Source of the DNA: a virus
Length of the DNA stretch: 36,983 nt
Strand: one strand, 5' to 3'
IMG/VR virus record: IMGVR_UViG_3300006802_000041
Span: 1 to 36,983 of that record
Below are positions 4,553 through 36,983 of the stretch, in pieces. Below the pieces are notes generated by a model, which did not search any database, was not told the origin of the DNA, and was given only the letters and a program-made list of their open reading frames with translations. A program made the position numbers and the translations under genes. Numbering within the stretch: position 1 is the stretch's first letter; the number at the start of each line of letters is the position of its first letter.

Positions 4553-4616
4553 TATTAATCTTAGGCGCTGTTTTTATTGGCTGCTCACAAGCACAAAAAG
4601 TCCACTTAGCAGACAT
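4542..4616 (-). CDS. Possible 24-aa ORF coupled to the Rha-ANT gene
   Basis: Starts MSAKWTFCACEQ and ends KINIDQ. Its ATG overlaps the stop of the Rha-ANT gene (TAATG), a coupling arrangement used throughout this operon. It contains a CxC. No family recognised and it is short enough to be chance. Confidence 0.3.
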   Translation of the reverse strand: MSAKWTFCACEQPIKTAPKINIDQ

Positions 4617-7436: not shown

Positions 7437-7664
7437 ATGAGAAAGAAAAACAAAGTCCCTGTGACTATGGTGTTAAACCCAGATACAAAAAAAGCGTCTC
7501 AGAAGTCAGCAAAAAAACTTGGGGTTAGCTTTAGCGTGTTAACTGATGCGGCGTTAGTTCGCGTTACAAATGAGCACGCATTCATAAAAGAGTGTGCCGA
7601 GCTTCAAGGGCTAACGCCAGAAGAGGCTGAGGAAAAGTTTTTAAGGGAGTGGGGGTTATTGTGA
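7437..7664 (+). CDS. Ribbon-helix-helix-like regulator, 75 aa
   Basis: MRKKNKVPVTMVLNPDTKKA begins with a basic stretch and a short strand (VPVTMVLN), followed by helix-turn-helix-like helices (KKASQKSAKKLGVSFSVLTDAALVRV), the usual shape of Arc/MetJ/CopG repressors; a helical tail follows. ACGGAG precedes the ATG. It is the first rightward gene, directly after the divergent promoter whose TACGTA repeats are plausible targets, so it may balance leftward and rightward early transcription. Confidence 0.7.
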   Translation: MRKKNKVPVTMVLNPDTKKASQKSAKKLGVSFSVLTDAALVRVTNEHAFIKECAELQGLTPEEAEEKFLREWGLL

Positions 7665-8685: not shown

Positions 8686-8755
8686 TTGATGGTTAATTCA
8701 AAATAAAACCCTTGCGCGTCAATTGGCGCGCTTATCTTAAATTTTGGAGATTGAT

Positions 8756-8833
8756 ATGAACAATGAGCTAGTAGTATTAGAAAAAGAAACTGCCCTTAGC
8801 GTGTTAACTGGTCAGACCACATCCATTAACTGA
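8756..8833 (+). pseudogene. Possible truncated remnant of a recombination-region gene (25 codons)
   Basis: Reads MNNELVVLEKETALSVLTG then stops soon after. TGGAG precedes the ATG with good spacing. The N-terminus resembles that of a longer phage protein often encoded beside ERF or RecT-like proteins (MNALVxIEKxxALAVFT type, recalled from memory). The accessory palindrome (8809-8819) falls inside the last codons, as though the promoter arrived by replacing the rest of the gene. Confidence 0.4.
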
Positions 8834-8862
8834 TAGTGCTAACATAGGCTATCAGTTAATGG
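8809..8862 (+). promoter_or_regulatory. Accessory promoter copy 3 with its -10 inside a 14-bp inverted repeat
   Basis: TGGTCAGACCA (8809-8819), 20 bp, TAACAT (8840-8845, preceded by TGC). A perfect 14-bp inverted repeat, CCATTAACTGATAG (8823-8836) and its complement (8849-8862), encloses a 12-base loop that contains the -10. The right arm ends in the GG of the GGAG (8861-8864) ribosome site for 8871-9050. A message read in from ssb can hide that site, while one started here (about 8852) lacks the left arm. Confidence 0.75.
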
Positions 8863-8870
8863 AGATGAAT

Positions 8871-9050
8871 ATGAAACCGCTAAGCAAAGATGAAGTTGCA
8901 GAGATAATGAAAAAGGAAGTTCCTATGTTGCTGCATAAAAGAATACTGGAGCTTGAAAGCGCACTTGAAACGGCTATATATATCGGCAAGATGAATCCAC
9001 ATACACGCAGAGAGCTTGCTGGCATTTTAAAGAAGGGGGTTAGCTTATGA
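8871..9050 (+). CDS. Small hypothetical protein, 59 aa
   Basis: MKPLSKDEVAEIMKKEVP... is a mostly helical charged protein. The ATG at 8871 is preferred over 8859 and 8865 because GGAG at 8861-8864 sits 6 nt before it. It is the first gene of accessory promoter copy 3. Its stop overlaps the ATG of a 9-codon peptide (MKTCGDLND, 9047-9076), which in turn overlaps the next gene start. Confidence 0.65.
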   Translation: MKPLSKDEVAEIMKKEVPMLLHKRILELESALETAIYIGKMNPHTRRELAGILKKGVSL

Positions 9051-9779: not shown

Positions 9780-9806
9780 TACCTCCTTAACAGGGGGTAT
9801 TTTTTT
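9780..9806 (+). terminator. Rho-independent terminator of the rightward early genes
   Basis: TACCTCC-TTAACA-GGGGGTA followed by TTTTTTT, 37 nt after the stop of 9480-9743. One G-U pair in the stem. Confidence 0.85.
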
Positions 9807-9816
9807 GCCTAAGATT

Positions 9817-9856
9817 GCAAATAGTGTTTGCATAAGCAAATAACGTTTGCTATAGT
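9817..9856 (+). promoter_or_regulatory. Sigma70 promoter covered by two GCAAA-N5-TTTGC operators
   Basis: TTGCAT (9828-9833), 17 bp, TATAGT (9851-9856). Two 15-bp palindromes, GCAAATAGTGTTTGC (9817-9831) and GCAAATAACGTTTGC (9836-9850), overlap the -35 and fill the spacer, 19 bp apart. It drives the C5 methyltransferase and looks strongly repressible. The regulator is not identified. Confidence 0.8.
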
Positions 9857-9892
9857 TGTTACATCGAAACGGAACACACCAAGGATTACAAA

Positions 9893-10699
9893 ATGTTTAC
9901 TTACTTATTTCAAGACTGTACAGCAGATGAGCTAGAGCAAGGCTTCTCTGGTTATGAGTTAGAGGTTTACGCAGACACTCTTGAGCTTGCCAAGATTGAA
10001 GCCGAAAGGATTGCTCGTAAAGGGTCTGAAGTTTCACTAATTGAAAGCAACGAGCCAGCACCAGCCAAGCCAGCAGCAGCACCAGCACCGTTAAGGGTTT
10101 TAAACTTGTATGCTGGTCTAGGCGGAAATCGTAAAGAGTGGGCTAACTGTGAAGTTACAGCTATAGAGTTTGATCCAAAGATTGCAGCTGTTTACCAGAG
10201 ATTGAACCCGAATGACACAGTAATTATCTGCGACGCACATCAGTACCTGCTCGAGCATTACCAAGAATTTGATTTTATATGGTCATCACCTCCATGTCAG
10301 AGCCATTCAAGAATGATAAGAAGCGGCAGAAACAGGAAGCCACGCTACCCAGACATGAAGCTATACGAGCAGATATTATTTCTTGAGCATAACTTTGCTG
10401 GCAAGTGGGTTGTTGAGAATGTCAAGCCATACTACAAAGAGCTTATCGAGTCGCAAAGTATAGGCCGCCATGTTTTTTGGGCTAACTTTGAAATACCCTT
10501 TATGGCAGAGCCTAAGTTTAAAAACTTCATTAACAGGCAAAACCTAAGCGACAAGCAAGATTTGATGGATTGGCTTGGGATTCACTACGATGAGAATATT
10601 TACTACGAAGGTAACCACTGCCCTACGCAGATACTCAGAAACTGTGTCCATCCATCAGTAGGTGCTCACGTGTTTAAGTCAATGCTGGGGTCAAAATGA
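9893..10699 (+). CDS. DNA (cytosine-5) methyltransferase with N-terminal extension
   Basis: A 268-residue protein. Residues 1-65 are an unrelated N-terminal segment and Pro/Ala linker. Then come motif I VLNLYAGLGGN, motif IV SSPPCQSHS with the catalytic Cys, and motif VI WVVENVKPYY. It transfers a methyl group from S-adenosylmethionine to cytosine, presumably to protect phage DNA. The target-recognition region is short, as in small phage enzymes. It has its own doubly-operated promoter, and its stop overlaps the next gene. Confidence 0.85.
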   Translation: MFTYLFQDCTADELEQGFSGYELEVYADTLELAKIEAERIARKGSEVSLIESNEPAPAKPAAAPAPLRVLNLYAGLGGNRKEWANCEVTAIEFDPKIAAVYQRLNPNDTVIICDAHQYLLEHYQEFDFIWSSPPCQSHSRMIRSGRNRKPRYPDMKLYEQILFLEHNFAGKWVVENVKPYYKELIESQSIGRHVFWANFEIPFMAEPKFKNFINRQNLSDKQDLMDWLGIHYDENIYYEGNHCPTQILRNCVHPSVGAHVFKSMLGSK

Positions 10700-10932
10700 A
10701 ATCAATAAAAAACATACGCGAGTTTGCAGAGTCACAAGGCGAGTCTCGCCAGGTAATCGAGAATAGAATTAAAAAGGGTTGGAAGTTCGGGGTCCTTGAT
10801 GGCAAAAAGGTGATGTATAACCCAAAGTTCATTAAACTGGTCATACCACCTAGCAGGGATTTAACTGATACTATTAGATTATCAGGTGAACGCGAAAAGG
10901 CAGATAAAGGCACTGCTCCCTGTAAACACTAA
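10696..10932 (+). CDS. Hypothetical basic protein, 78 aa, possible DNA binder
   Basis: MKSIKNIREFAESQGESRQVIENRIKKGWKFGVLDGKKVMYNP has a helix-turn-helix-like beginning (FAESQGESRQVIENRIKKGW) followed by a short basic hairpin. Its ATG overlaps the methyltransferase stop (ATGA), so the two are cotranslated. It could be a companion or regulator of the methyltransferase; this is an inference from position. Confidence 0.6.
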   Translation: MKSIKNIREFAESQGESRQVIENRIKKGWKFGVLDGKKVMYNPKFIKLVIPPSRDLTDTIRLSGEREKADKGTAPCKH

Positions 10933-12276: not shown

Positions 12277-12589
12277 CGATATCAGGGTTCTGATAGCAGA
12301 GATGCGCTCAGACCAGAAAGCAACAAGTGAATCAAATAGGCAGGTAGCTAAAGAGCTTTCAAGCGTAGCAAAGGAGCTTCATTCGATAGGAAAGGCTTTC
12401 ACCGCTCAAACTGTTATAGTCGGCGACCTAAAGAACACCGCATCCGACCACGAAAAACGCATTAGGGTTGTAGAAGATGCCGTTATAGCTGACAGGCCAT
12501 TCAAAGAGATTAGAGGCTGGATATTAAAAGGAGCTATAACATTTATGATTGCTGGCATACTTGGCGCCGCATTCATCGTAAACAAGTAA
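12263..12589 (+). CDS. XhlA-like coiled-coil protein with C-terminal TM
   Basis: A 108-residue protein: hydrophilic coiled-coil region (residues 10-80, ESNRQVAKELSSVAKELHSIGK, NTASDHEKRIRVVED) and a C-terminal membrane anchor (ILKGAITFMIAGILGAAFIV). This is the layout of haemolysin XhlA-type proteins, which in some phages assist holins. With 11724-12276 it forms a second membrane-protein cluster, far from the main lysis genes. Accessory promoter copy 4 follows directly after its stop. Confidence 0.7.
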   Translation: MGEDSDIRVLIAEMRSDQKATSESNRQVAKELSSVAKELHSIGKAFTAQTVIVGDLKNTASDHEKRIRVVEDAVIADRPFKEIRGWILKGAITFMIAGILGAAFIVNK

Positions 12590-12590
12590 C

Positions 12591-12644
12591 TGGTCAGACC
12601 ACATAGATCCCAATAATAAGATATAGTCTTGTTGTTGGGTTTTT
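12591..12644 (+). promoter_or_regulatory. Accessory promoter copy 4 embedded in a terminator-like hairpin
   Basis: TGGTCAGACCA (12591-12601), 20 bp, TATAGT (12622-12627). A 13-bp RNA stem (CCCAATAATAAGA 12609-12621 with TCTTGTTGTTGGG 12627-12639, two G-U pairs) has the -10 as its loop and is followed by TTTTT. Read-through from 12263-12589 meets a terminator; transcripts begun here lack the left arm. Confidence 0.75.
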
Positions 12645-15475: not shown

Positions 15476-16992
15476 TGTCAAATAAATCAGAATTAAGAAC
15501 GGTTGACGATGAATATAGAGCGCATCTTCAGATGTGGCAAGAAATTGACGCATGTAACAAGGGCGCCAAATATGTTGTTGGCTTGGTAGGGTCGTTGCCT
15601 GCTCCATCTTACACAGTATCAAATGGAAGGCTCAAGTATGACCATCTAGATGACGAGTTAAGATTAAGGGCCCGAAATGTCGAGTATAACCGCAACCTAG
15701 CAAACAAGCAGCGCATTGAGGAATACTGGGCTAGAGGTCGGTTTTTCAATGCTGTCGGCAAAACAACCGAGTCATTCCACGGCATGATTTGGAGTAATCC
15801 AGCAGATAAAGACATTCAACCCAACATGGAAGAGGTCGCTGATAACATCACAGGCAGTGGATGGGATGTTGACGACTTAGCGAAGGATATCACCTACCAG
15901 TTAATCCTAAAAGGCCGATATGGCGCACTGGCTGACATGGCTGGAACCGATAGACAGCTAACAGCAGCCGAACAGTCAATGCCTGAATACCAGCCCAAGG
16001 TGATTACATATAAGCCGTCACAAATACTTAGAGCTTATGAAAAAGACGGTAAGTATATCGATATTAGGTTAAGTGAATGCGTAACAGAGCGAGTTGCAGG
16101 AACTTACGGCTACGAGGAAAAGGAATACACAAGGCGATTAGCAATTGAGGGCGGTGTTTACGTTAACCAACTGTTTGACGATAAAGACGAGCTAATTGAA
16201 GAAACGTTTCCACGCGCTAACGGTAAACCGTTTACTGAAATACCATTTGTATTTTTTGGCTCAGATAAAAACACTGCTGAATACTCGCGCCCGCCAATGT
16301 TCGATTTAGCGCACATCAACATGGGTCATTTCGTACTTGATTGTGATAACAGGGATAACCTGCATTACCACGGGCAGGGTACAACGGTTGTGACTACTGA
16401 CATGGAGTCGTACGAATTTGACGCCATGAACCCTGCTGGCTTAGATACTGGCGCAAAGGGTAAGAACGTCTTAAAGAAAGGCGATGACATTAAGCTCGTC
16501 CAGCTAGATGCTACTGGTGCAATCTCCGCTGAAATGCTAAGAGATGAAGATAGGATGATTAAGGCGGGCGCCCAAATCATTCAGCCTAATGGCTCGGCAA
16601 TGACGCTAGGTCAGAAGAAAATCGAATCTAATTCATCGCTATCGACACTTGCCAGAATCTCGCACAACACAAGCGCGGGTATTGAGCAGCTGTTTGATTA
16701 TCTGTGCCAGTTTAAAGGTGTTGAGAACACCAGCACATACAAGGTTAATTCCAAGTTCATCACTGACGAGATGACTCCAGAGCTGATTAATGCTCAGATA
16801 GCCATGGTCCAGGGTGGTGTGCTGCCTGCTGTTACATTAAACGAGACGGCAAGACGCGCAGGGCTGACCACTTTTGACGATGAGCAAATCGCTGATGAGT
16901 TGTTGAGAGATGGTGAAAGTCTAACTGGTGATATCGAAGAGGTCGCAAGGCTAAGGGCTGAGCTAGAAGCGTTAAGGGCTGGCCAGGAGTAA
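15475..16992 (+). CDS. Portal protein (DUF4055 family)
   Basis: A 505-residue protein with the DUF4055 portal pattern: DEYRAHLQMWQEIDACNKGAKYV near the start, RARFFNAVGKT-like and FHGMIWSNPAD around residues 90-115, GRYGALADM, RPPMFDLAHINMGHF, and the QIIQPNGSAMTLGQ segment. Portals form the dodecameric DNA gate at the capsid vertex. It follows terL and the HslV-like gene, and ends at a bidirectional terminator before the inverted cargo gene. Confidence 0.88.
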   Translation: MSNKSELRTVDDEYRAHLQMWQEIDACNKGAKYVVGLVGSLPAPSYTVSNGRLKYDHLDDELRLRARNVEYNRNLANKQRIEEYWARGRFFNAVGKTTESFHGMIWSNPADKDIQPNMEEVADNITGSGWDVDDLAKDITYQLILKGRYGALADMAGTDRQLTAAEQSMPEYQPKVITYKPSQILRAYEKDGKYIDIRLSECVTERVAGTYGYEEKEYTRRLAIEGGVYVNQLFDDKDELIEETFPRANGKPFTEIPFVFFGSDKNTAEYSRPPMFDLAHINMGHFVLDCDNRDNLHYHGQGTTVVTTDMESYEFDAMNPAGLDTGAKGKNVLKKGDDIKLVQLDATGAISAEMLRDEDRMIKAGAQIIQPNGSAMTLGQKKIESNSSLSTLARISHNTSAGIEQLFDYLCQFKGVENTSTYKVNSKFITDEMTPELINAQIAMVQGGVLPAVTLNETARRAGLTTFDDEQIADELLRDGESLTGDIEEVARLRAELEALRAGQE

Positions 16993-16996
16993 ATAA

Positions 16997-17022
16997 AAAG
17001 CCCCTTAATCGGGGCTTTCTTT
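16997..17022. terminator. Bidirectional terminator between portal and inverted cargo gene
   Basis: AAAGCCCC-TTAATC-GGGGCTTT with T-rich flanks on both strands. It ends rightward portal transcription and leftward transcription of 17025-18074. Confidence 0.9.
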
Positions 17023-21004: not shown

Positions 21005-21148
21005 ATGAAAGAGATTATTTATCTGGTTCATCCCGTCTCTGCTGAAGAAAAGGCAAAGCATAAAGGCAAGAAGATTGTTGATGCCAGATTCAAGCCTGAT
21101 GAAGTAGAGCCGGAAAAGCCCAAGAGAAAGCGAAAAGCTAAAGAGTAA
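21005..21148 (+). CDS. Small basic protein after the capsid gene, 47 aa
   Basis: MKEIIYLVHPVSAEEKAKHK... ends PKRKRKAKE. An AAGGGG-type ribosome site precedes the ATG 10 bp after the capsid stop. A strand and helix precede a very basic tail that could touch packaged DNA. A terminator follows. Confidence 0.75.
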   Translation: MKEIIYLVHPVSAEEKAKHKGKKIVDARFKPDEVEPEKPKRKRKAKE

Positions 21149-21152
21149 ACAG

Positions 21153-21179
21153 AAGCCTCCTTGATTGGGGGCTTTTTTA
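21153..21179 (+). terminator. Terminator after the capsid operon
   Basis: AAGCCTCC-TTGATT-GGGGGCTT followed by TTTTAT, one G-U pair. Confidence 0.85.
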
Positions 21180-21432: not shown

Positions 21433-21984
21433 ATGAGCATAAGAAATGAACTGCTTGAGGATATACTGGCGGCAATAGTTGCCTCTGGTGGCGCGACTGA
21501 TAACTGCCGAATTGGGTTTGCTGACTACTCAGATTTATCTACCCAAACGACCCCTATAGTTGTCACTGGTGGAGCTGGGTTTGTGTATTTAACAAATGAC
21601 GGGGCTGGGCCATTCACGAATAAGGCTTACCTGCCGACTGGCGTTACTGATGTATGGGATGCAATAGCCGGGAACTTTGACTTCACCGAGCTTAAGCTTG
21701 GGGATATGGTTGATATAAGGCTTGATCTAGATATCACGACATCATCACCGAATCAGCTTGTTGATGTGGAGCTTGAGCTTGGCAGCGGAGCTGGGCTGTA
21801 CAACATACCATTCGCTAGTGGCGTATTTAAAGATACTGGAGAGAAAAACGTAAACCGATACAACGGAATTTACATTGGTGACGCCAACACACTTAACGGG
21901 GGTGGAAGATTTAAAATATCTTCTGATGATAATGCCACGGTTAAAGTAAACGGGTGGTACTGCAAGATATTAATTAGAGGATAA
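21433..21984 (+). CDS. Probable head decoration / head-fibre protein
   Basis: A 183-residue protein. A short N-terminal helix (RNELLEDILAAIVASGG) precedes a beta-rich domain with GDMVDIRLDLDI, QLVDVELELGSGAG and KVNGWYCKILIRG, the type of jelly-roll head expected of a capsid-surface protein. AGGAG-like bases precede the ATG. It lies in the head block and is followed by a bidirectional terminator. The role is inferred from fold and place. Confidence 0.65.
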   Translation: MSIRNELLEDILAAIVASGGATDNCRIGFADYSDLSTQTTPIVVTGGAGFVYLTNDGAGPFTNKAYLPTGVTDVWDAIAGNFDFTELKLGDMVDIRLDLDITTSSPNQLVDVELELGSGAGLYNIPFASGVFKDTGEKNVNRYNGIYIGDANTLNGGGRFKISSDDNATVKVNGWYCKILIRG

Positions 21985-21985
21985 C

Positions 21986-22013
21986 AAAAAGCCCCTTTGA
22001 TTAGGGGCTTTTT
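21986..22013. terminator. Bidirectional terminator at the edge of the cargo island
   Basis: AAAAAGCCCC-TTTGATTA-GGGGCTTTTT. It separates the rightward decoration gene from the leftward island 22016-24775. Confidence 0.92.
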
Positions 22014-36854: not shown

Positions 36855-36952
36855 AACGCCACCACCATAACAAATAAGCTAACAACCAAACCAACAAGCA
36901 AAAACTGCGCGCTTGATGGCAAACCGTCTAGATAATCGATTAATTTATTCAT
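36851..36952 (-). CDS. 33-aa single-TM protein spanning the contig join
   Basis: MNKLIDYLDGLPSSAQFLLV... is hydrophobic from residue 15 to the end. GCGAGG lies before the ATG. Its start overlaps the stop of the gene at 85-402 (second copy, 36945 onward) and its stop overlaps the next start (ATGA), proving that genes run continuously across the ends. The first copy (1-92) is truncated. Possible holin-like or envelope peptide. Confidence 0.7.
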   Translation of the reverse strand: MNKLIDYLDGLPSSAQFLLVGLVVSLFVMVVAL

Positions 36953-36983
36953 GCTCGCCTCGCGCCTTAGCTAGTAGTTGATC
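36861..36983. repeat. Terminal direct repeat, right copy
   Basis: Identical to 1-123. Contains the start of the 33-residue membrane protein and a partial second copy of the 3' end of the gene at 85-402. Confidence 0.95.

Follow-up and report, generated by a model that had tools for sequence, protein, structure and literature searches.

In the T4 genes e, soc, 49, I-TevI/II/III and segB, and in mobE of Aeh1, a hairpin hides the Shine-Dalgarno (SD) site in RNA that comes from an upstream promoter, and the near promoter of such T4 genes yields an RNA without the 5' arm of that hairpin (PMC2988022, PMC3014915). For T4 gene e, the hairpin cuts lysozyme about 100-fold (PMC3014915). The locus analyzed here lies in a viral DNA stretch of 36,983 nt (IMG/VR record IMGVR_UViG_3300006802_000041, used at its full length and called the window). 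The window carries a 123-bp direct terminal repeat (1-123 and 36861-36983), which is consistent with a complete circular assembly.

The locus resembles the T4 hairpin genes in two respects: its hairpin, at 8822-8863, is predicted to sequester an SD site in RNA initiated upstream, and its own promoter, named here for the operator that starts at 8809, is placed so that the predicted transcript lacks the 5' arm. An earlier note on this DNA had attributed the same hairpin logic to T4 e, soc and I-TevI, and the reviews agree (PMC3014915, PMC2988022). Unlike T4 late promoters, the promoter at 8809 consists of a -10 element, TAACAT, with a palindromic operator, TGGTCAGACCA, located 20 nt upstream. 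The window phage is also not of the T4 type, the downstream gene is a 59-aa orphan and the sister promoters use terminator hairpins. Membership of the 8822-8863 element among the hairpin-regulated late genes of T4 is not supported. The reading we favor, and hold to be rather more probable than not, is that 8809-8863 forms an insulating cassette start, in which an operator and a sigma70-like promoter are combined with a hairpin that blocks expression from read-through RNA. The features of the locus are listed below.

8805-8822, plus strand: TAACTGGTCAGACCACAT, 18 bp, identical to 12587-12604; homology to both relatives reaches leftward to position 8805
8809-8819, plus strand: operator core TGGTCAGACCA of the cassette promoter, one of 7 exact copies
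8822-8836, plus strand: left arm of the hairpin, from repeat search and folding
8837-8848, plus strand: 12-nt loop TGCTAACATAGG, the same in all three phages
8840-8845, plus strand: -10 hexamer TAACAT, assigned from the promoter family, with an extended TG at 8837-8838
8849-8863, plus strand: right arm of the hairpin, from repeat search and folding; transcription start expected at about 8851-8854 from the position of the -10
8861-8864, plus strand: SD site GGAG, of which the hairpin pairs GGA
8871-9050, plus strand: 59-aa orphan cassette gene, an open reading frame (ORF) beginning MKPLSKDEVAEIMKK and lacking a family match

The inverted repeat formed by 8822-8836 (TCCATTAACTGATAG) and 8849-8863 (CTATCAGTTAATGGA) is perfect over 15 bp, has a loop of 12 nt and is the strongest short-loop repeat of the whole window. 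Perfect repeats of at least 15 bp with a loop of 3-20 were found in none of 60 dinucleotide shuffles of the window, and those of at least 12 bp with the same loop range occurred at 0.1 per shuffle. The RNA of 8822-8863 folds with a free energy of -25.3 kcal/mol (z -6.8). The arm sequences have no second occurrence within the window, and an Rfam search with the element returned no family match up to an E-value of 1. The earlier note had described a perfect 14-bp repeat (8823-8836/8849-8862) with a 12-nt loop, unlikely to arise by chance, holding the -10 in its loop and ending on the right in the GG of GGAG. The repeat is present and perfect, though one pair longer; the shuffles bear out its improbability by chance, TAACAT does lie within the loop, and the overlap with the SD site extends further than described, to the GGA that makes up three of its four bases. 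The right arm is followed by GATGAATATG rather than by a U tract, so the hairpin, unlike intrinsic terminators, should not terminate transcription. It is also absent from the list of terminators predicted in the window.

The ATG at 8871 is located 6 nt after GGAG, and the ATGs at 8859 and 8865, which are also in frame, have no well-placed SD site. In the long RNA, predicted pairing of the SD site is 0.97-1.0, and the predicted cost of opening it is 8.7-9.3 kcal/mol, compared with 0.7-0.8 kcal/mol in RNA starting at 8851-8854. The corresponding predictions for the two relatives described below are 9.1-9.4 kcal/mol in the long RNA versus 0.4 in the short one (L053) and 4.6 kcal/mol versus 1-1.8 (L052). 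The proposal that the long RNA masks the SD site and that the short one cannot is thereby supported. The layout speaks for it, as do the folds predicted for three related phages and the other family promoters that lie within hairpins of unrelated sequence.

The 59-aa gene has no match in Pfam, PHROG or NCBIfam. Searches of viral contigs (by alignment), genome contigs and annotated phages found no homologues beyond two contigs, which makes three phages the only carriers within these collections. With dN/dS of about 0.18 to L052 and about 0.27 to L053 (simple counts), the gene is under purifying selection.

The cassette promoter belongs to a family defined by TGGTCWGACCA, a spacing of exactly 20 nt and TAnnnT, of which the window has 7 exact copies and the relatives about 20 in all. 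In the window, each of the 7 exact cores is followed by TAnnnT at exactly N20 and in one orientation. When 49 oriented cores from the window and related phages are sorted by spacing, 20 fall at N20 and 0-6 at any other spacing. The promoter at 8809 is, on this sequence evidence, a credible operator-linked promoter of the sigma70-like kind. It is missed by a scan of the window for the sigma70 -35/-10 consensus and found by the family pattern. Scanning with TGGTCAGACCA-N20-TAnnnT alone yields matches that are mostly due to chance, and a stricter operator-promoter pattern applied to bacterial genomes gave only chance-looking matches in unrelated taxa. The operator family is absent from the related isolates Pseudoalteromonas phage PHS3, three Vibrio phages and Klebsiella phage KpV52, which are therefore of no use as controls having the promoter without the hairpin. 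An operator match in Escherichia phage ZCEC08, a single core with no -10 at N20, was taken as chance. A MarR-like protein of the phage (5302-5529) was considered as the regulator; it has no match in 11 operator-bearing records, a weak argument given that these are mostly fragments and that a positive control was lacking. Members of the family elsewhere in the window are as follows.

463, 2396, 18137, 22691 and 24851, minus strand, and 8809 and 12591, plus strand: operator copies
10838-10848, plus strand: degenerate operator TGGTCATACCA, bordering the methyltransferase block on its right; L049 has an intact copy of this operator and lacks the block
12591-12601, plus strand: operator of the second co-directional cassette promoter, from the operator scan
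12609-12644, plus strand: intrinsic terminator CCCAATAATAAGATATAGTCTTGTTGTTGGGTTTTT, from terminator scan and folding; its stem-loop encloses the -10 TATAGT at 12622-12627

The enclosure of a -10 by a hairpin recurs in this family. The terminator at 12609-12644 is common to the window and L049. In L038, the operator at 9911 occupies the same place as 12591 and is followed by another terminator sequence (about 9925-9955), again around the -10. A third terminator sequence with the same layout is present in other phages, at L208 (about 4566-4600) and L210 (about 10688-10722). At least three hairpin sequences besides 8822-8863 thus enclose -10 elements of the family; all are intrinsic terminators and they are mutually unrelated. 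The preceding gene is co-directional in each case, at 12591, at L038 9911 and at L208/L210. L198 (5314-5355) and L200 (7999-8040) have an operator and then a terminator-like hairpin, CTAAGCC..GGCTTA, followed by a T-rich stretch, with TAGGCT as a possible -10, and may represent a fourth form in which the -10 is placed in the right arm of the terminator. No such hairpin surrounds the -10 of the co-directional copies at 463 and 2396 (minus strand). A strict test for a -10 within a hairpin was passed by 2 of the 7 exact window promoters versus 67 of 18,462 window positions and, among control -10-like sites with an SD and a start from the window and four other phages, 3 of 88, a comparison that is approximate because the sites were partly found by pattern search and the controls are not proven promoters. 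A literature search on promoters inside terminators found nothing useful.

Apart from the window, the cassette is carried by two IMG/VR contigs (L052/L038 and L053/L049). At L052 and L053 the operator, -10, loop and SD site are identical to those of the window and the gene is kept, and the ssb-like gene upstream differs. Homology of the window to both relatives begins at 8805, which places its start four bases upstream of the operator core. A block from about 9812 to 10834 that includes a DNA methyltransferase is missing in both, with homology resuming at 10835, beside the degenerate operator, and L038 is homologous to the window as far as 12604, where the operator repeat also ends. Because these breaks fall at operators, the operator is taken as the edge of the cassette. 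The methyltransferase has a -10 context of its own, TTTGCTATAGTTGTTACATCGAAACG, which is like that of copy 24851 minus the operator.

The hairpin of L053 has one mismatch and a predicted energy of -18.6 kcal/mol. In L052, 4 of 15 positions of the left arm and 1 of the right arm are changed, resulting in one compensation of T-A to C-G, three mismatches and -15.8 kcal/mol. When as many changes as in L052 are introduced at random, 11% of the mutants keep an equally stable hairpin. With pairing imperfect in both relatives, selection on it is weakly supported by these sequences. Loss of the repeat in relatives that keep the promoter, which the earlier note had named as evidence against its proposal, was not found, as L052 and L053 keep both promoter and hairpin, the latter with 3 and 1 mismatches, respectively.

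What is read directly from the sequences is the repeat, the promoter family with its fixed spacing, the coincidence of operator and cassette edge, the conservation of the gene and the recurring hairpins around the -10; together these suggest the following course of events. Read-through RNA from the co-directional erf-ssb genes would carry both arms, fold and hide the SD site of the 59-aa gene. Since the -10 is in the loop, transcription from the cassette promoter would begin inside the right arm (about 8851-8854), and the SD site of this RNA would stay open. Where transcription starts, how the RNA folds in vivo and how strongly translation is affected are inferred here. The hairpin would in this way tie the 59-aa gene to its own promoter and insulate it from the transcripts of its neighbors. 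Silencing would take two forms in the family, by termination at 12591 and by hiding of the SD site at 8822-8863.

The same anatomy could serve a temporal switch as in T4, with a masked read-through RNA made early, a cassette promoter that fires late and a product wanted only then. The arrangement equals that of T4 e, soc and I-TevI, and erf and ssb are genes of a kind usually expressed early. Against this, family promoters are found in presumed early and in structural regions and on both strands, and the -10 is sigma70-like rather than that of a T4 late promoter. Most of the other hairpins that enclose a -10 are intrinsic terminators, which argues for insulation from read-through rather than for timing. 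The early/late switch put forward in the earlier note is not supported, as no observation assigns the promoter to a timing class and its operator-linked, sigma70-like type is not that of a T4 late promoter; we regard such a switch as unlikely.

A second alternative concerns the region just upstream of the hairpin, which contains two further features.

8714-8731, plus strand: terminator-like stem, downstream of ssb and ahead of the leader ORF, from the terminator scan
8756-8833, plus strand: 25-codon leader ORF with SD site GGAG at 8746-8749 and stop TGA at 8831-8833, in the left arm

The leader ORF has a good SD site, and because its stop is inside the left arm, a ribosome there would cover that arm and could melt the hairpin. 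The 59-aa gene would then be translated from read-through RNA by translational coupling. A leader ORF that stops in the left arm is, however, found in the window alone. In both relatives about 22 nt separate the end of the upstream ORF from the left arm, a layout in which coupling is not expected. The leader ORF also resembles a gene fragment left by insertion of the cassette: it weakly matches (E 0.23) the post-ssb gene of Vibrio phage V039C, which occupies the same gene position, and it is probably the truncated 5' end of that gene, a remnant cut by the insertion. Coupling as the purpose of the arrangement is judged quite improbable. Under the insulation reading, translation of the leader ORF may partly undo masking in the window phage and the stem at 8714-8731 may reduce read-through there; with the two together, there may be little masked read-through RNA, or it may be opened. 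An exact 15-bp direct repeat, TTAGCGTGTTAACTG, occurs at 7531-7545, in a small gene before erf, and at 8796-8810, in the leader ORF just before the operator.

The hairpin could also be a product of chance, or the decaying remnant of an overlapping terminator or of a recombination event, and now be nearly inert. Its imperfect pairing in the relatives and the missing U tract behind the right arm are in keeping with this. A perfect 15-bp repeat is nevertheless beyond chance and SD-hiding pairing is predicted in all three phages, which leaves this explanation very doubtful. Least probable is a role at the DNA level, with the arms as two repressor half-sites symmetric about the -10: the axis of the hairpin does coincide with the center of TAACAT, at 8842.5, but neither arm is repeated elsewhere in the window, the uneven changes in L052 would spoil a symmetric protein site and the hairpins at this position in other family promoters differ in sequence.

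The favored reading, an insulated cassette start, invites comparison with two further systems. As in moron cassettes, small accessory genes, each with a promoter of its own, are inserted between other genes, and the minus-strand genes driven by copies 18137, 22691 and 24851 lie antisense in the plus-strand structural operon. As for a moron, the cassette has another upstream neighbor in L052 and L053 than in the window, and homology starts at 8805. Unlike morons, the window cassettes share one operator-promoter sequence, and homology to the relatives starts and stops at the operator. Terminator-like sites at 9780-9799 and 12609-12639 are candidates for a terminator of the cassette itself. The structural region also contains three similar terminator-like repeats, AAAGCCCC..GGGGCTTT, at 16983-17021, 21139-21177 and 21975-22013.

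The second comparison is with the FadR-activated genes fabA and fabB of Escherichia coli, in which the core TGATCGGACTT is followed by N21 and then by TAnnnT (probe sequences, PMC4259882). The phage arrangement, TGGTCAGACCA-N20-TAnnnT, is alike with a spacing one base shorter; that the operator might be a FadR-type site is a lead only. A search of the window and 11 related records, several of them fragments, found no GntR-family gene, which fits a regulator supplied by the host. A wider proposal, which we put forward tentatively, is that this marine phage group follows one cassette plan, with an edge marked by a palindromic operator that is probably a FadR-type site of the host, a -10 in the loop of a hairpin that either ends transcription or hides the SD site, and a gene that would obey only the cassette promoter and thus a metabolic regulator of the host.

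The placing of a promoter inside a hairpin is known from T4; in this phage promoter family the arrangement recurs, in two forms. If the favored reading is true, the T4 nesting of a promoter in a silencing hairpin arose elsewhere as well and is used modularly, with the hairpin acting as terminator or as SD mask. This suggests a way for phages to admit foreign genes without leaky expression from their neighbors, and a fixed operator at cassette edges would make such cassettes findable by sequence alone. The possible FadR link could tie the expression of accessory genes to the lipid state of the host.
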